From NCBI GenBank assembly GCA_011049595.1, contig DRHN01000521.1, positions 1-37,928 of the forward strand: 37,928 nt of DNA, written 5' to 3'. This document shows positions 3,164 to 33,712 of the stretch, piece after piece. The position numbers and the translations under genes were made by a program. How positions within the stretch are numbered: position 1 is the first letter of the stretch; every line of letters begins with the position of its first letter. The DNA is from Spirochaetota bacterium (GTDB taxonomy: Bacteria; Spirochaetota; B62-G9; DRHN01). The notes below the pieces were generated by a model, which did not search any database, was not told where the DNA came from, and saw nothing but the letters and a program-made list of their open reading frames with translations.

Positions 3164-3207
3164 GGATAAATACCCTCATATATTCCGGTAGCATTTCAGC
3201 TATTTTT

Positions 3208-3376
3208 AAATAGATCTTGGTGACAACTTCGACCACGACTAAGTCGGGCAAGCCCGACAACTCCGGAGTTTTACCCGGCGTAGTCGCCAAATAACTCTAT
3301 TGAGCCGTTTCACCGCGACTAATCTCAAAGTTACTTACATTGATAAATAGCATGGATTCTTCACCAAGAACTAATT
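3208..3376. repeat. MITE-like intergenic repeat, copy R1
   Basis: This 169-bp non-coding element has imperfect 15-bp terminal inverted repeats: AAATAGATCTTGGTG on the left, and CACCAAGAACTAATT on the right, whose complement is AATTAGTTCTTGGTG (13 of 15 identical). Inside are the palindrome GTCGGGCAAGCCCGAC and the block TTGAGCCGTTTCACCGCGACTAAT, both shared with other copies. It fills the space between two divergent genes and ends 16 bp before the DUF434 start codon. There is no open frame of note. Confidence 0.8.
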
Positions 3377-3381
3377 ATAAT
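3376..3381 (+). promoter_or_regulatory. Possible -10 box at the edge of repeat R1
   Basis: A perfect TATAAT is formed where the repeat terminus (CTAATTAT) meets the flank (AATATA). It lies ten bases before the ATG at 3392, and no ribosome site separates them. If used, it would give a leaderless or nearly leaderless message. No good -35 box is seen 16-18 bp upstream, so this is tentative. Confidence 0.3.
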
Positions 3382-6065: not shown

Positions 6066-6197
6066 TTTTTTCTCCAACCCCGCAATTATTATTCGGATTA
6101 AGTTTCGCCGGCCTTATAACAATTGACATAACTCTTGATGCCGGTTATCATATGTTTATTGAATGACGTGCTGGCATGCAAATAGGCGCTTAATAAC

Positions 6198-6226
6198 AAT
6201 TTCCTTGCTTTTTTGGCAAGGAAATT
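6198..6226 (+). terminator. 11-bp perfect hairpin followed by T-rich tail
   Basis: AATTTCCTTGC and GCAAGGAAATT form a perfect 11-bp stem around a 7-base loop, followed by TTTCC. It lies about 130 bp after the stop of the 578-aa gene and 45 bp before the next start. It fits an intrinsic terminator or an attenuator between the two genes. The T-tail partly overlaps the stem. Confidence 0.5.
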
Positions 6227-6238
6227 TTTCCAATCAAG

Positions 6239-6257
6239 AATGCGGCTTGTCCGCATT
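6239..6257 (+). promoter_or_regulatory. Small hairpin just upstream of the ribosome site of the GIN-domain gene
   Basis: AATGCGG-CTTGT-CCGCATT is a perfect 7-bp stem with a 5-base loop. It ends right before AGGGGG, the ribosome site for the ATG at 6272. It could protect the message end or modulate translation initiation. This is visible structure with inferred function. Confidence 0.4.
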
Positions 6258-6271
6258 AGGGGGCTAATGAT

Positions 6272-16378: not shown

Positions 16379-16535
16379 AGGGTCCATTTGTTTTTACTCT
16401 TATTCAGCAGCTTTGTGATCGATCGGAAAAATGTTCAGCTTTTGTTTTATTTAAACTAATTATAATGAAATGTTATTGTGTAATTAAGTATTGAAATATT
16501 TTTTATAACGTGTTATTGTAAATTTAAAGCGGATT

Positions 16536-16630
16536 AATTTGTTCTTGCCGCCACGCCGTATAAAACACGGAGTAGCCGGCTTCCCCGGCTTAAAGTCGGG
16601 CAAGCCCGACGTTGTTACCAAGAACTAATT
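16536..16630. repeat. MITE-like intergenic repeat, copy R2 (short form)
   Basis: A 95-bp copy with ends AATTTGTTCTTGCCG and TACCAAGAACTAATT. The left end matches the family terminus AATTAGTTCTTGGTG at 12 of 15 positions. It holds GCCGGCTTCCCCGGC and GTCGGGCAAGCCCGAC. Its left half resembles the reverse complement of the right half of copy R3 (CCACGCCGT...AGTAGCCGG). It sits 38 bp upstream of the UVR-protein start. The rest of the 16379-16667 gap is AT-rich and shows nothing else. Confidence 0.75.
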
Positions 16631-16667
16631 TTCAATGCGGTTGTCTTTTTTAAACAAGGGTAATGAA

Positions 16668-18292: not shown

Positions 18293-19453
18293 ATGTCAGA
18301 TAATTTGTTGATCACAAATTGCGAGCTTTTTTATTCAAAAGAAACAGCTGAAACAGTGTCTCTGGTAATCGAGGATGGTACTATTTCGGGGATTGAGAAA
18401 TCCGGGCGAGAAGATGTAAACCGGGTAACTCTCAACGCGGAAAACCGTATCATTGCCCCGGGTTTTATTGACGTGCATATTCAGGGCGCCGGCGGCGCGG
18501 ATGTGCTGGACAGCACGCCTGAGGCATTAAAGACAATCGCAAAGACCTGTGCCCGTTACGGAACTACAAGTTTTTTAGCGACAACGGTATATCGCCCTGA
18601 AGGGGATAACAGGCATCTGGGGGTTGTGGCCGACTGCACCGGGAAAGATCTTGGAGGCGCGAATCTTTTAGGGCTGCACCTTGAAGGCCCTTTTATTTGC
18701 CCCGAGAAGAGAGGTATGATATTACCTGAAAGTATTTGCGCTCCGTCAGGCCAGGTGTTGAAAAAAATTCTCGGTCTTTCAAAGGATACATTAAAGATCA
18801 TGACTATTGCGCCGGAGCTTGAGGGAAGCCTTGATACTATTAAACAGCTTGCGGCGTCAGGCGTGGTTGCATCATTCGGACATTCAAATGCCACATACGA
18901 TGAGGCTGTGAAAGGGATCGGGGCCGGAATATCCCATGTTACCCATCTGTTTAACGCGATGCCATCCCTTCATCACCGCGCACCGGGCCCTCTTTTGGCT
19001 ATTTTTAAAACAGAAACGGTGAGTGTCCAGGTTATCCCGGACGGTGTCCATCTTCACCCCAGGGTATTGAAATTCGCATATGAATTGATAGACGGCGACC
19101 GGTTTACGGCTATCACGGACGGTATGAGGCCCATGGGTCTTCCGGATGGCGTATACGTTTACAATGGTGTTGAATATGAATCAAAGAAGGGGGTGACACG
19201 ATATTTTGACGGTACTCTGATCGGGACTTCACTTGGTTTTATCCAGCTTGTTCTACGGCTTATGGAGTTTACGCACTGCACACTGGAGGCCGCCGTAAAA
19301 ACCGCGACGAAAAACCCGGCCAAAGCCCTGGGTGTCTGGAACCGCAAAGGTGCGATAGCGGTCGGAAAGGATGCCGATCTTGTTATCCTGGACCATGATT
19401 ATTCTGTGTGGGCAACGATCGTCGGAGGCAGGGTCGTTTTTAAGAAGAAATGA
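18293..19453 (+). CDS. nagA: N-acetylglucosamine-6-phosphate deacetylase
   Basis: This 386-aa amidohydrolase converts GlcNAc-6-phosphate to glucosamine-6-phosphate, feeding amino-sugar use and cell-wall recycling. Recognisable motifs include PGFIDVHIQGAGGADVLD near residue 58, LLGLHLEGPFICPEKRG with the metal-binding Glu, ASFGHSNATYDEA with a metal His, VTHLFNAMPSLHHRAPG, ITDGMRPMGLPDG with the catalytic Asp, and the C-terminal NPAKALGVWNRKGAIAVGKDADLVILD. The length is standard. GlmS, coded later in the window, makes the same product by synthesis. No nagB or phosphotransferase gene is adjacent. It is probably transcribed alone. Confidence 0.95.
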   Translation: MSDNLLITNCELFYSKETAETVSLVIEDGTISGIEKSGREDVNRVTLNAENRIIAPGFIDVHIQGAGGADVLDSTPEALKTIAKTCARYGTTSFLATTVYRPEGDNRHLGVVADCTGKDLGGANLLGLHLEGPFICPEKRGMILPESICAPSGQVLKKILGLSKDTLKIMTIAPELEGSLDTIKQLAASGVVASFGHSNATYDEAVKGIGAGISHVTHLFNAMPSLHHRAPGPLLAIFKTETVSVQVIPDGVHLHPRVLKFAYELIDGDRFTAITDGMRPMGLPDGVYVYNGVEYESKKGVTRYFDGTLIGTSLGFIQLVLRLMEFTHCTLEAAVKTATKNPAKALGVWNRKGAIAVGKDADLVILDHDYSVWATIVGGRVVFKKK

Positions 19454-19494
19454 TTACGCGGGTTTCCCGGTTTTAAATGACATGGAGACCCAAA

Positions 19495-19757
19495 AATTAG
19501 TTCCCGGTGACAACTTCGCTTGCGACTAAGTCGGGCAAGCCCGACATCGTCGGGTGCCCCGAAGTAGCCGGTTGTAAACCGGCGTAGTCACCAGTTCACT
19601 TTATTGAGCTGCTTCACCGCGACTAATTAGTTCTATTTAACTGTTTATATTTTCCAAATTGATTATCTTAAGAATACTTAGTTAATTAAAAATACTAATT
19701 AAGCCGGGCAAGCCCGGCTACTACGTGTGCTACACGGCGTGGCACCAAGAACTAATT
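19495..19757. repeat. MITE-like intergenic repeat, copy R3 (longest copy)
   Basis: This 263-bp element fills almost all of the 322-bp gap between nagA and dodecin. Termini AATTAGTTCCCGGTG and CACCAAGAACTAATT are inverted repeats (13 of 15). It reads as two joined units meeting at the internal GCGACTAATTAGTTC (about 19618-19632): one with GTCGGGCAAGCCCGAC, one with CCGGGCAAGCCCGG. The block TTGAGCTGCTTCACCGCGACTAAT matches R1 and R4, and TTAAGAATACTTAGTTA...AATTAAGCCGGGCAAGCCCG matches R4. It is non-coding and ends 18 bp before the dodecin ATG. Confidence 0.85.
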
Positions 19758-19775
19758 ATACAAAGGAGAGAGGGC

Positions 19776-27781: not shown

Positions 27782-28261
27782 TTATTCGCTTGAAAAATCA
27801 AAAACCACAGGTGATGCGAGTTTTTTATAATCTTTCACCTTCATGATAATGGAATCGGTTAAAGATCCCGCATTAAAAGCTATGCGCTCGTTGTTTATGA
27901 TGGAATGGTCAACGTAAAGCTCGAGTCCCGTGATGGGCTTTCCAAAGGGGGGCACCGAACCCGGAACCAGACCGGTGATCTTGAGGAGCTCCTCCGGGGT
28001 GGCAAAACGTGTCCTTTTTACGTGAAAATACTCTTTTATCTTTGAAGAGCTCATTTTACAGGCGGCGCTCAGGACGAAAAGCTTAAATGTTTCACCCACT
28101 TTCAGGACAAGCGCTTTTCCCCCTATACCGATGTCCTCTCCCCGCGCGTTCGCCGCATCAGCTGAGGTTCTTGTGGGTCCATGGTGCATCTCCTGAAACA
28201 TGACGGACTGTTCTTCTAAAAGTTTCTTTATGTTTTGATAGATCTCATTGTTCACTGCCAA
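27782..28261 (-). CDS. YbaK/EbsC-type aminoacyl-tRNA deacylase
   Basis: This 159-aa protein belongs to the YbaK/ProX editing superfamily, which hydrolyses mischarged tRNA in trans. Visible features are HHGPTRTSADAANARG near residue 26, the invariant Lys region GIGGKALVLKVGETFKLFVLSAACKMSSSKIKEYF, RFATPEELLKITGLVPGSVPPFG, and the C-terminal NAGSLTDSIIM. The frame begins with TTG at 28261, preceded ten bases upstream by AGGAGG; a GTG two codons later is the alternative. The specific misacylated tRNA is not predictable from this. The stop faces the HAD-like gene with 31 bp between. Confidence 0.88.
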   Translation of the reverse strand: MAVNNEIYQNIKKLLEEQSVMFQEMHHGPTRTSADAANARGEDIGIGGKALVLKVGETFKLFVLSAACKMSSSKIKEYFHVKRTRFATPEELLKITGLVPGSVPPFGKPITGLELYVDHSIINNERIAFNAGSLTDSIIMKVKDYKKLASPVVFDFSSE

Positions 28262-28376
28262 AAGGAAGCAACCTCCTATGGATGTGGTCTATAATTTTAG
28301 AAAGTGGTTAAATCAAAGTCTATGCCTTTGAAAATCTTTTGGCTTGTAAAAAAGCCACCTGTTGTGAGAAACCGCA

Positions 28377-29546: not shown

Positions 29547-31373
29547 CTACTCCACGGTCACGCTTTTTGCCAGATTTCTCGGCTGATCAACATTACATCC
29601 CCTGATAACCGCCACATGATAGGCAAGAAGCTGGAGCGGTATGACATTTATAACCGGTGAGAGAAACGTCAGGGTCTCGGGCACTTCAAAAACGATGTCC
29701 GAAAGCTCCTTGATTTGTTCATCTCCGCTGGTAACTACAGATAAAATAGTCCCGTTACGTGCCCGGATCTCGGAAATATTGCTCATGATCTTTTCATAAA
29801 TGACGTCTTTTGTAGCAATGACAATAACGGGCATATTTTTATCTATCAGGGCGATAGGGCCATGTTTCATCTCCGCGGCTGGATACCCCTCAGCGTGCAG
29901 ATAGGATATCTCTTTTAGTTTTAACGCTCCCTCGAGAGCAACGGGGAAATTGTAGCCTCTTCCAAGATATAGAGCGTTATTGTGCTTTGAAAGTTTTTTT
30001 GCGATATTTTCGATCTCGCTGTTTCTGTTCAGAATTCCTTCAACAAGATCCGGTATATCATCCAGGGCCTTGACAATTTTTCTTCCGTTTTCGAGGGTCA
30101 GGTTTTTCATTCTTCCTATCATCAATGCGATCATCGTCAGGACAAGGACCTGTGATGTAAATGCCTTTGTGGAGGCGACGCCGATTTCCGGTCCAGCGTG
30201 GATATACACACCGGCGTCGCTTTCACGGGCTATAGTGCTCCCGACAACATTACATATTCCGAGCACTGTGCCGCCTTTACGTTTTGTTTCCTTAAGCGCG
30301 CCCAGGGTGTCGGCTGTTTCCCCTGACTGGCTTATGACAAAAACAATGTCCCCTTTGTTGATGATCGGCCCCCGGTACCTGAACTCGGACGCGTATTCAA
30401 CTTCCACGGGAATACCGGCGAGCTCTTCAATAATATATTCTCCGATCAGCGCTGAATGCCACGATGTCCCGCAGGCTGTTATAATAATTCTCGAAGCGTT
30501 TTTGAGCTGTTCGATATTTTCCAGAAGGCCGTCAAGGCGGGCGGTACCTTCATCATAGTTCAGACGTCCCCGAAGAGTGTTTCTGAGGGATGTTTTCTGT
30601 TCAAAGATTTCTTTGAGCATAAAATGCTCGAAACCGTCTTTTTCGATCATTTCAAGGTTCCAGGAGATCTGCTGGACCTTTTTTGATACCTTTTTCATGT
30701 CAAGGGACATCACATTGAACTCTTTAGCCGTAAGCTCGGCGATTTCACCATCTTCGAGATAAATAATTTCATTTGTGTATCTCAGGATCGCGGCCACGTC
30801 TGAAGCGATAAAATACTCATCCTTCCCTTTGCCGATAAGAAGCGGGCTCCCTTTCTTTGCGGCGAAGATCCTGTCGGGCTCCTTTTTAGATATGACAGCA
30901 AGACCGTAAGTCCCTTCCACTTCAGCAAGGGCCGTTGAGAGAGTTTCAAAAAGGCTGCCGTTGTAGTTCTCCTCGATAAGGTGCGCCAGCACTTCCGTGT
31001 CGGTATCACTTTTGAAATGATGGCCCCGGTCTTCAAGGTATTTTTTAAGAGACCTGTGGTTCTCGATTATACCGTTGTGCACGACTGTTACGTCGCCACT
31101 GCAGTCCGTGTGCGGGTGGGCATTTACCCTGTTAGGTGCGCCGTGGGTTGCCCATCTCGTGTGCGCGATCCCGGCCGTTCCCGAATGCTTCGTGCTTTTT
31201 ACAAGGTTCTCGAGGTCCTGAACCTTGCCTTTTGTCTTTTCAATAAAAAGGTCATTGTCTTCAAGGACCGCGAGGCCGGCGGAGTCGTAACCCCTGTATT
31301 CCAATCTTTTCAGCCCTTCGATCAGCACGGGGATTGCGAGTTTTTTACCTATGTAACCAACTATTCCGCACAT
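29547..31373 (-). CDS. glmS: Glutamine-fructose-6-phosphate aminotransferase (isomerising)
   Basis: This 608-aa enzyme makes glucosamine-6-phosphate from fructose-6-phosphate and glutamine, the first committed step towards UDP-GlcNAc. The N-terminal glutaminase domain begins MCGIVGYIGKK with the catalytic Cys2, followed by HTRWATHGAPNRVNAHPHTD and SDTDTEVLAHLIEE. Two SIS sugar-isomerase domains follow (IITACGTSWHSALIGEY, FVISQSGETADTLGAL, ALYLGRGYNFPVALEGALKLKEISYLHAEGYPAAEMKHGPIAL), and the protein ends LAKSVTVE. The track starts seven codons earlier; the ATG at 31373 has a strong GGAGGAG site and gives the required Cys at position 2. The start is 38 bp after repeat R4. I see no glmS ribozyme core in the leader. 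Confidence 0.97.
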   Translation of the reverse strand: MCGIVGYIGKKLAIPVLIEGLKRLEYRGYDSAGLAVLEDNDLFIEKTKGKVQDLENLVKSTKHSGTAGIAHTRWATHGAPNRVNAHPHTDCSGDVTVVHNGIIENHRSLKKYLEDRGHHFKSDTDTEVLAHLIEENYNGSLFETLSTALAEVEGTYGLAVISKKEPDRIFAAKKGSPLLIGKGKDEYFIASDVAAILRYTNEIIYLEDGEIAELTAKEFNVMSLDMKKVSKKVQQISWNLEMIEKDGFEHFMLKEIFEQKTSLRNTLRGRLNYDEGTARLDGLLENIEQLKNASRIIITACGTSWHSALIGEYIIEELAGIPVEVEYASEFRYRGPIINKGDIVFVISQSGETADTLGALKETKRKGGTVLGICNVVGSTIARESDAGVYIHAGPEIGVASTKAFTSQVLVLTMIALMIGRMKNLTLENGRKIVKALDDIPDLVEGILNRNSEIENIAKKLSKHNNALYLGRGYNFPVALEGALKLKEISYLHAEGYPAAEMKHGPIALIDKNMPVIVIATKDVIYEKIMSNISEIRARNGTILSVVTSGDEQIKELSDIVFEVPETLTFLSPVINVIPLQLLAYHVAVIRGCNVDQPRNLAKSVTVE

Positions 31374-31410
31374 ATAATCTCCTCCCCCGGTCAACTGTTT
31401 ACATTTTCGT

Positions 31411-31517
31411 AATTACTAATATTGAGCCGTTTCACCGCGATTAATCATAAGAATACTCAGTTATCTTGAAAATTCAAATTAAGCCGGGCAAGCCCGAAGT
31501 AGCAACAAGAACTAATT
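31411..31517. repeat. MITE-like intergenic repeat, copy R4 (left end worn)
   Basis: An approximately 107-bp copy. The right terminus CAACAAGAACTAATT (31503-31517) matches the family end at 14 of 15 positions. The left terminus is not recognisable. The interior has ATTGAGCCGTTTCACCGCGATTAATC (as R1 and R3) and TAAGAATACTCAGTTA...AATTAAGCCGGGCAAGCCCG (as R3). It sits between the membrane-protein gene and glmS on the minus strand. Its right edge contributes the stop codon of the membrane-protein gene. Confidence 0.75.
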
Positions 31518-32118
31518 ATCCTCCGCCAGTGTTTGCTTCATCATCATGGTCTAAGGAGGGGCCTGTTTTAATTTCTTCAGCCGAAGTGGAGTTTTCCGCA
31601 GTGGCTGCTGTTACTCTCAGCGTGTTTTTTCTACCAAGACCTCTTGTCAAAAACGCGGCTCCCAAAAGAAAGATCGAAACTCCGATGACAAGCCCGAACT
31701 GGGTTTCCAATGAATAAATTATCCAGATAAGAAGAGAAATAGAGATGATGAGGGTCGAAAGCACTGCCAGAACCTTTTTTTTATTCCCGTAAAAGTACAT
31801 TGACAACAGGCTCAACCCGAAAGTAAATAGAAACCCGGGCCAGAGTATGGTTATACGCTCATATGAAGTGAATATAAGAACAAAAAGAGGGACAGAAGAG
31901 GTGGCGATAAATGTCGCTAAAAAAAGGATAAACAGACGTTGTTTTTTCTTTCTTGTAGAAAAGTAAAAAATGTAGAGGATAACTCCTGCAAGCAGGAGAA
32001 TTGCAGGCCACACTTTGTTGAATCCTCCCTCAAATACCTTGAGGTTGAAGAAGATCACAGCAATACTGATGACGATGAGCGTCACGCCGATAAATAGATG
32101 TTTGTTTTTTTGGGTCAT
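31516..32118 (-). CDS. Six-helix membrane protein, LiaF/DUF5668-like
   Basis: This 200-aa integral membrane protein has about six hydrophobic helices: LFIGVTLIVISIAVIFFNL, VWPAILLLAGVILYIFYF, LFILFLATFIATSSVPLFVLIF, ITILWPGFLFTFGLSLLSMYF, VLAVLSTLIISISLLIWIIY, FGLVIGVSIFLLGAAFL. A cytoplasmic Ser/Thr-rich tail ends NTGGG. The paired helices with short loops recall LiaF/DUF5668 N-terminal domains, but no LiaF beta domain is present. The ATG at 32118, with AAGGAA eight bases upstream, is preferred over the track start at 32136. The stop codon is part of repeat R4, so the C-terminus may have been shortened by insertion. It lies between the DUF5312-like gene (4 bp upstream) and glmS. The role is unknown. 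Confidence 0.7.
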   Translation of the reverse strand: MTQKNKHLFIGVTLIVISIAVIFFNLKVFEGGFNKVWPAILLLAGVILYIFYFSTRKKKQRLFILFLATFIATSSVPLFVLIFTSYERITILWPGFLFTFGLSLLSMYFYGNKKKVLAVLSTLIISISLLIWIIYSLETQFGLVIGVSIFLLGAAFLTRGLGRKNTLRVTAATAENSTSAEEIKTGPSLDHDDEANTGGG

Positions 32119-32122
32119 AATT

Positions 32123-33712
32123 TTATTCCTTGACAATGGCTTTCTTTTTTTCGATTTCCGCCATTGTGATGTTTATGGATACATAATTATTCATGAGTTT
32201 TAACAGTAAAAATATGTCTTTGTAGGTTTTAACTAGCTCTTCGATAAATTGTTTATTACTGCCGGCGCGTATTTTTTTTATGTTTGAAACTATCTTTGGA
32301 GTTTTTAGTTTGTAATCCTCCAGCACGTTCTTCAGGCATTGAGCCATTTTTTTTATGTTTAATACCTGCTCGTCGATGATTATCTTTGCCTTCAGATTTA
32401 TATTTTTAATTGTTTTATCCAATATTTTTTTCGCACTTTTTTCCCTTTTTATTGACTGCAGCAGCCTCGTAATTACTTTTCCGGTTGTGCCTTCTGAATC
32501 AAGGCTGTTTTCAAAGGCCGTAATATTATGAAGATGACTGTTCAGAGCGTAATAGCTGTTGGAGAGGTCGTTGAGTACACCCTTGTTTATGAATATCCCG
32601 CTTATTATAAGCTCGTTTACCACTTTGCTTATGTACGTCTTGTATTTATCAGTTATAAATGCTTTTACATAATTTATGGGTAGAACGTACTTGAAAACAG
32701 GTATCCCCAGGTTCGCCAGCTGATCGTTTTTGGAATCCGTGTAATTTTTTACTCTTCCTTCCGCAGATCCTTCAAATAATTGGGAGATCATTGTGTGCAT
32801 GGATTGTTCTTTCAAGGTTCTCTTTATGGAATTTACAACCGTTTGGACGTCATTTTTCTTTTTCTGCAGATAGGAGTTGAAGACATCAACGGTTCCCGGC
32901 TTATCGATCGGTACCGGGGCCAGGCTTTTGTCGATCGCCCGGATGATCAGCGCGATATAGCCGTTTTTCTGGAGGCTGGATATCAGGTTTTTCAATTTGT
33001 TGTAGTTGCTTTTACTGATAGGCTCAAAGCCTTTGATATTGGAAAAGATCTCGAACGCCGCGTCGAGTTTTCCGTCGACCTCGAAGGTGAAGAGCGACCG
33101 ATGGAATTTAAGTAGATCGTTTTTTAAAAAGGAGCCCTCTGCCGGAGAAAACGAAGGCTTTCTGATGAAATTCGCCTCCTCCAGTGTTGTGTCAAATTCT
33201 CTTAATATGGGAAAGAAATCAAAGTTGGTGAATCGAGCGAAATACAGGAAATTTGAAAAAACGGAATTTATTTTGATGAGAGTCTCTTTATCGAAATAAT
33301 CGAAATACTCGTTTAACAGCTTGTCAAGATGGTCCGCGGTTTTCTGGATTCCGTATTTCGGTACAAGTTTTTTGACATAATCTTCATTGAGTTTGTTATA
33401 GACCTCGAGCGCGTCACTTTGATGAAAACTAAGCACAAAGCTTTCTTCAAACGAGGGGGGAAATTTTATTGTTTTTTTATCAAAAGAAATAAACTGCTTG
33501 AGAGGGTAGGTGAGCTTATAAATCTCAAAGATCAATTTAGCTATCGGCGTCTGTATTAAATCCTGTTTTAACTTGAAAAGGTCTATCCTCGATGATGAAA
33601 GCTCTTTCTTCAACACCCTGAACGCCCTTCTCTTTACAGGGTCTTTTCCTCCAAAGAGTTTTTTGAAAAACCCGAGTTTTTCTTCCGGTTCCGTTAGGTT
33701 ATTAGAATCCAT
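32123..33712 (-). CDS. DUF5312-like spirochaetal protein of unknown function
   Basis: This 529-aa soluble, all-helical protein starts EEKLGFFKKLFGGKDPVKRRAFRVLKKELSSSRIDLFKLKQDLIQTPIAKLIFEIYKLTYPLK. That N-terminal block resembles what I know of DUF5312 proteins of spirochaetes. Further parts, GIPVFKYVLPINYVKAFITDKYKTYISKVVNELIISGIF and RLLQSIKREKSAKKILDKTIKNINLKAKIIIDEQVLNIKKMAQCL, look like coiled-coil or repeat helices. No catalytic motif, membrane span or signal peptide is seen. Its start overlaps the J-protein gene by 11 bp and its stop is 4 bp before the membrane-protein gene, so the three are probably co-translated. The function is unknown; the family label is by memory, not search. 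Confidence 0.7.
   Translation of the reverse strand: MDSNNLTEPEEKLGFFKKLFGGKDPVKRRAFRVLKKELSSSRIDLFKLKQDLIQTPIAKLIFEIYKLTYPLKQFISFDKKTIKFPPSFEESFVLSFHQSDALEVYNKLNEDYVKKLVPKYGIQKTADHLDKLLNEYFDYFDKETLIKINSVFSNFLYFARFTNFDFFPILREFDTTLEEANFIRKPSFSPAEGSFLKNDLLKFHRSLFTFEVDGKLDAAFEIFSNIKGFEPISKSNYNKLKNLISSLQKNGYIALIIRAIDKSLAPVPIDKPGTVDVFNSYLQKKKNDVQTVVNSIKRTLKEQSMHTMISQLFEGSAEGRVKNYTDSKNDQLANLGIPVFKYVLPINYVKAFITDKYKTYISKVVNELIISGIFINKGVLNDLSNSYYALNSHLHNITAFENSLDSEGTTGKVITRLLQSIKREKSAKKILDKTIKNINLKAKIIIDEQVLNIKKMAQCLKNVLEDYKLKTPKIVSNIKKIRAGSNKQFIEELVKTYKDIFLLLKLMNNYVSINITMAEIEKKKAIVKE

Follow-up and report, generated by a model that had tools for sequence, protein, structure and literature searches.

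A family of short hairpin-rich repeats with TAATTA-type junctions, resembling non-autonomous mobile elements, in the gene gaps of a Spirochaetota bacterium

The genome assembly of a Spirochaetota bacterium (G000; 4.44 Mb in 521 contigs, about 89% complete) holds considerably more than a hundred short sequences, non-coding and rich in hairpins, that resemble mobile elements and lie between genes. The new part of the finding is the junction, in which the flank on the right side of a copy is nearly constant and the flank on the left varies around the hexamer TAATTA. The best explanation, to which we assign a probability of roughly 0.5, is that these elements are non-autonomous and that a recombinase with a 6-bp core, supplied in trans, inserts them.

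Copies in the analysed window

The window, that is the whole stretch of 37,928 nt under analysis, contains four copies of a palindromic mini-element and no others in a motif scan, in agreement with the first-pass annotation; when up to 3 mismatches are allowed, the end motif is matched 7 times, where shuffling predicts 1.35. The copies, their bounds counted to include the TAATTA-type flank, and the parts of the longest one are as follows.

3207..3377, + strand: copy 1, 171 bp, with a left hairpin unit, the D block TTGAGCCGTTTCACCGCGACTAAT and the right end, between a solute-binding protein gene and a DUF434 gene
16535..16631, + strand: copy 2, 97 bp, a short GC-hairpin form with TAATTT as both flanking hexamers
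19494..19758, + strand: copy 3, 265 bp including flank, a composite of two units
19495..19509, + strand: left end of copy 3, AATTAGTTCCCGGTG
19614..19638, + strand: internal junction of copy 3, CACCGCGACTAATTAGTTCTATTTA, the right end of unit 1 and the left end of unit 2 with a single TAATTA in common
19743..19758, + strand: canonical right end of copy 3, CACCAAGAACTAATTA
31391..31518, + strand: copy 4, left end truncated

Copy 3 (19494-19758), which had been suspected of being two units joined, is such a composite, with its joint at CACCGCGACTAATTAGTTCTATTT, and it lies 17 bp upstream of the ATG of a dodecin gene. Copy 4 had been bounded at 31411-31517 and actually starts at 31391; its truncated left side is 17 bp from the glmS ATG (31371-31373), and the TTA of its right end (31516-31518), read on the other strand, is the TAA stop codon of the neighbouring minus-strand ORF (31516-32136). 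The elements are small and without an ORF, as the earlier statement that no transposase is encoded within them would have it.

Two further dispersed repeats were seen in the window. The stretch at 6189-6261 is a copy of a second repeat of 73-82 bp with two hairpins (GTACCTTAATAACAATTTCCTTG...CAAGAATGTGGCTTGTCCACAT), which also occurs in genomes G002 and G047 and for which 1.24 Mb of G000 gave about 17 good copies; it reaches up to 95% identity between genera, and at locus L067 it adjoins the remnant of a DDE transposase. The third repeat, of about 111 bp, lies at 28251-28361. The same 1.24 Mb of G000 contains at least 6 more copies of it, complete or partial; G002 has dozens, 40 having been scored from 172 candidates, and in G047 a copy is found close to a DDE_Tnp_1 gene (L371).

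Copy number and genomic placement

Across the whole G000 assembly the 16-mer end CACCAAGAACTAATTA is matched 222 times when up to 2 mismatches are allowed, where the reversed control is matched once, and 147 times at up to 1 mismatch; blastn with the 263-bp copy as query returns 45 matches genome-wide. Further copies are abundant, so that the outcome held up at first pass as fatal to the family, no copies elsewhere in the genome, did not materialise. Paired copies could be delimited 67 times in 1.24 Mb of G000, a subset of contigs picked for carrying ends, which may inflate the share of canonical ends, not the left/right difference described below. Only one of the 67 falls inside an ORF of at least 100 aa, against 57.5 expected under random placement, and the other 66 lie between ORFs; being nearly all intergenic, the copies are not equally common in coding sequence, the second outcome that had been named as adverse. 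Neighbouring genes are co-directional at 30 copies, divergent at 13 and convergent at 8, against 110, 36 and 22 for all gaps. The orientation around copies thus matches that of all gaps and indicates no special tie to start codons, and the position upstream of a start codon that had been described for each copy is true of the four in the window but does not extend to the genome. On contig C122 of G000 (about 18620-18690) there is a tRNA-like gene, tRNA-Pro by eye, with an element directly 3' of it (CAGCCCGAATAATTAGTTCTTGG).

Architecture and mosaicism

The elements have inverted ends, GTTCTTGGTG...CACCAAGAAC, and range in size from bare hairpins of 32-38 bp up to about 270 bp. The long form is made of two units that have one TAATTA in common, the first running from TTAGTTCTTGGTG through a hairpin block closed by GGTG/CACC to TTCACTTTATTGAGCCGTTTCACCGCGACTAATTA, and the second from TAATTAGTTCTATTTAACTG through an AT-rich stretch and a GC hairpin block to CACCAAGAACTAATTA; joined ends, CACCNNNNACTAATTAGTNNNNGGTG, are seen within composites. 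Copies are mosaic and diverged, with hairpin modules exchanged between them, and the short GC-rich copies look like left and right blocks joined at the repeated CGGGCAAGCCCG. In a set of 30 distinct hairpins, stems average 4.4 pairs; reshuffling the halves gives 2.7 on average and no more than 3.6 in any of 2000 shuffles, and the stems persist through compensatory changes while their sequence varies. Relative to shuffles, the predicted DNA fold of copy 2 has a z of -4.3 and the predicted RNA fold of copy 3 a z of -6.3, and the predicted fold of copy 4 is not above shuffles; the curated Rfam models gave no match to the element.

Two side observations concern hairpins outside the elements proper. 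Short tandem hairpin repeats (CAGGAACCGCTTGCCGGTTAT; GGGTTCCTGGTAACCCTTAAA) adjoin elements on G000 contigs C334 (about 1960-2060) and C405 (near element C405b 14217). At locus L316 (1108-1160) of G046, one of the Actinobacteria-labelled MAGs considered below, a stand-alone palindrome, TTATTCAACAGGGAC-TAATTA-GTTCCTGTTGAATAAT, consists of two ends joined at TAATTA with an element on neither side; a joined-end site or a remnant would look like this.

Junctions, target sites and stop codons

Among 58 oriented copies in the 1.24 Mb of G000, TTA stands at the right flank in 55 and TAA at the left flank in 23, an asymmetry for which the discordant pairs give p ~2e-8. The left hexamer resembles TAATTA in a gradient that is strongest beside the arm, and where the two flanking hexamers differ, TAATTA is usually one of them. 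Left and right hexamers are no closer to each other than permuted pairs (mean distance 1.24 against 1.26; permutation test, p = 0.29), and there is therefore no general target duplication; a duplication of 3 or 6 bp finds no support. Identical non-canonical hexamers, as duplication would give, stand on both sides of the window copy at 16535-16631 (TAATTT) and of a copy on G000 contig C124 (TGATTT). Sixteen elements from MAGs (Actinobacteria-labelled, plus one unclassified bin) have TAATTA on both sides in 8 cases and on one side in 6, and one has TAATAA on both sides. Target duplications, which the first-pass annotation had proposed to look for, are thus absent in general, with these three identical-hexamer exceptions (two in G000, one in a MAG). 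The pattern of one donor-like and one target-like core is compatible with recombination over a 6-bp overlap, and it is also compatible with single-strand insertion beside a fixed TAA; alternatively, the conserved right flank could belong to the element proper.

The stop codon of a neighbouring gene falls exactly at the element end in 11 cases, as TAA (of TAATTA) in 8 and as TAG (of TTAG) in 3, and the end concerned is the right one in 9 of the 10 cases with an orientation. Use of TAA as a stop is modestly enriched at right ends (7/67, against 14/454 for other intergenic TAATTA sites; p = 0.01). Several of the abutting genes look full-length, judging from their C-termini, and therefore both insertion at an existing stop and the supply of a new one may have occurred.

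Empty sites and occurrence in other genomes

In G001, a genome of the same genus that is 60% complete, the element is absent from the dodecin gap, which holds copy 3 in G000, and from the UVR and glmS gaps. The joined flanks align across the insertion point in the dodecin gap against G001, and in the gap that follows a tyrosine-recombinase (xer-like) gene against G004. The empty sites that had been recommended for inspection were in this way found in both relatives at the level of alignment, the genomes having about 65-75% DNA identity, at which junctions are not resolvable to the base.

At up to 1 mismatch the 16-bp end occurs 45 times in G004 (same family; CP070841, bin100), 3 times in G001 and 1-4 times in the family's other genera, and at this threshold it is almost absent elsewhere in Spirochaetota among the relatives searched. 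An extended form of the end, TTATTCACCNNNNACTAATTA, is found in Actinobacteria-labelled MAGs (54 matches in G041 and 38 in G046; control 0), where it encloses elements of about 110 bp with different interiors, and in G004, which represents another Spirochaetota genus and where the elements, again with different interiors, are longer. The end length common to different genomes is 18-21 bp, and the sharing of ends across genomes around unrelated interiors points to a common enzyme. Where the 16-mer was matched in Nostoc, Paenibacillus and other genomes, there was mostly one site, probably by chance; in two Nostoc genomes the counts at up to 1 mismatch were 3 and 6, with controls of 1 and 4. The phage and plasmid collections gave no match to the element, and 3 exact matches to the end in viral contigs were taken as chance.

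Mode of insertion and candidate enzymes

A mobile, non-autonomous origin of these elements is very probable, and insertion with a TAATTA core and without target duplication is likely. An enzyme supplied in trans would join both ends around the 6-bp TAATTA core, and this end junction would then recombine with a TAATTA-like target, leaving the donor core on one side and the hexamer of the target on the other. Such flanks would be the product of a conservative recombinase of the circle type, such as a tyrosine recombinase, which can be put forward tentatively as the agent; the flank pattern fits the inverted arms, 6-bp core and donor and target cores of tyrosine recombinases, and no enzyme is linked to the elements. 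With TAA-initial sites favoured, insertions beside TAA stop codons would be frequent, element ends would provide TAA and TAG as stop codons, and the copies that survive would be those between genes. Following insertion, units may join end to end, and repeats such as CGGGCAAGCCCG may be the places where hairpin modules are swapped or lost, processes that would produce the mosaic structure. The original idea of non-autonomous transposons moved in trans thus stands as regards dispersed, non-autonomous elements and is not borne out as regards a classical MITE, no general duplication being seen and no parent with the same ends having been found in the genomes searched.

A transposase gene with the same ends, the search for which had been advised, was not found: across six enzyme families (Y1, tyrosine recombinase, DDE_Tnp_1, IS1595, IS630 and IS110) no gene detected in the genomes searched is bounded by the element ends. 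None of the tyrosine-recombinase loci examined bears these ends; one such gene in G000 has an element 50 bp downstream, and its counterpart in G004 has none. The 1.24 Mb of G000 examined contains no long element with these ends, and the long end-bounded candidates on G000 contig C134 (1391 bp) and at loci L098, L309 and L314 proved to contain ordinary genes or to be two separate elements. Long repeats are few in the assembled G000 sequence. MAG assemblies frequently lose insertion sequences, and for that reason the absence of an enzyme is weak evidence.

Single-strand transposition of the IS200/IS605 or RAYT type, in which a folded strand is excised and inserted without duplication beside a short fixed TAA, would also give a fixed motif on one side and a variable flank on the other; the strong hairpins suit it, and Y1 genes are present in G003, G004, G005, G041, G043 and others. 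However, inverted terminal repeats are atypical of the IS200/IS605 group (PMC3119063). No Y1 locus bears these ends, none was detected in G000 (about 89% complete), the genome richest in copies, nor at E<=1e-3 in G042 or G047, and such a route is unlikely. It is likewise improbable that these are classical DDE MITEs whose short AT-rich duplication is masked by the palindromic TAATTA and later drift. Inverted ends, small size, the lack of an ORF and the identical hexamers around two G000 copies (TAATTT, TGATTT) and one MAG copy (TAATAA) speak for such an origin, as do the loss of insertion sequences from MAGs and the scarcity of assembled long repeats, but flanking hexamers are not matched pairwise, the left inner triplet ATA stands opposite the right TTA in many copies, and the DDE_Tnp_1, IS1595, IS630 and IS110 loci found all lack these ends. 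A DDE pseudogene beside an end (L067/L373) was discounted, a different dispersed repeat (L067, about 1260-1347) lying between the end and the gene. Finally, a REP-like or cis-regulatory RNA element selected in front of genes, the other reading offered at first pass, is highly improbable, for although predicted folds are strong, hairpin changes are compensatory and start codons are close by in the window, the neighbour orientations equal background, the same gaps in G001 have no copies, interiors vary between copies and genomes, Rfam gives no match, a Y1/RAYT gene is undetected in G000 and regulation of the downstream gene is unsupported.

Relation to known repeat families and significance

The proposed insertion by a trans-acting recombinase at a 6-bp core can be set against several described families. 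BOX elements have a modular structure and are likened by description to the present family as a modular dispersed repeat; we know of no mobility rule with a TAATTA core for them. They occur in pneumococcus (PMC3049150). The closest described class is that of the small mobile repeats (SMR-A/B) of Haloquadratum walsbyi, which combine inverted repeats with the lack of both a target duplication and a parent transposon, and whose movement is termed 'enigmatic' (PMC3119063). Like the SMRs, which measure about 80-110 bp, the present elements are too short to code for a transposase, occur in many copies and have inverted terminal repeats and no target duplication (three exceptions aside); in the six enzyme families searched, no transposon with these ends was found. 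SMR families are reported to be homogeneous, with identities commonly above 95%, and other mobile elements are the targets of SMR-A (PMC3119063), whereas the present copies are mosaic, reach 270 bp, have no high identity to one another and no preference for other mobile elements, and lie mostly in ordinary gene gaps or joined to their own kind. The family is thus SMR-like, placed beside the SMRs by description and not as a proven member.

The MITEs RUP and Correia/NEMIS are similarly short, non-coding and intergenic with inverted ends, but they have termini of the TA type and duplicate their target, and for RUP the parent is an IS630 element (PMC2229807); neither a fixed-length target duplication nor a parent insertion sequence with the same ends, as DDE MITEs have, was found here. 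REP, BIME and REPIN sequences with RAYT share the many palindromic intergenic copies and the mosaic assembly (PMC2817692, PMC3733652), but the present elements end in inverted terminal repeats, and neither the GTAG/CGTC tag nor, in G000 (89% complete), a Y1/RAYT gene was detected. PATEs also have palindromes, heterogeneous copies and no target duplication, and differ in being related to IS605 and without inverted terminal repeats, which the present elements have (PMC3119063).

It is conceivable, if rather doubtful, that these sequences are a cross-phylum form of minimal mobile DNA, in which arms of 10-15 bp and a 6-bp TAATTA core would suffice for conservative, duplication-free insertion by a candidate recombinase and the interior would be a free mosaic of hairpins. 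With its many copies, a measurable junction rule and an end sequence found across phyla, the family is one for which the enzyme can be sought, and it shows one way in which intergenic DNA beside stop codons fills with structured repeats.
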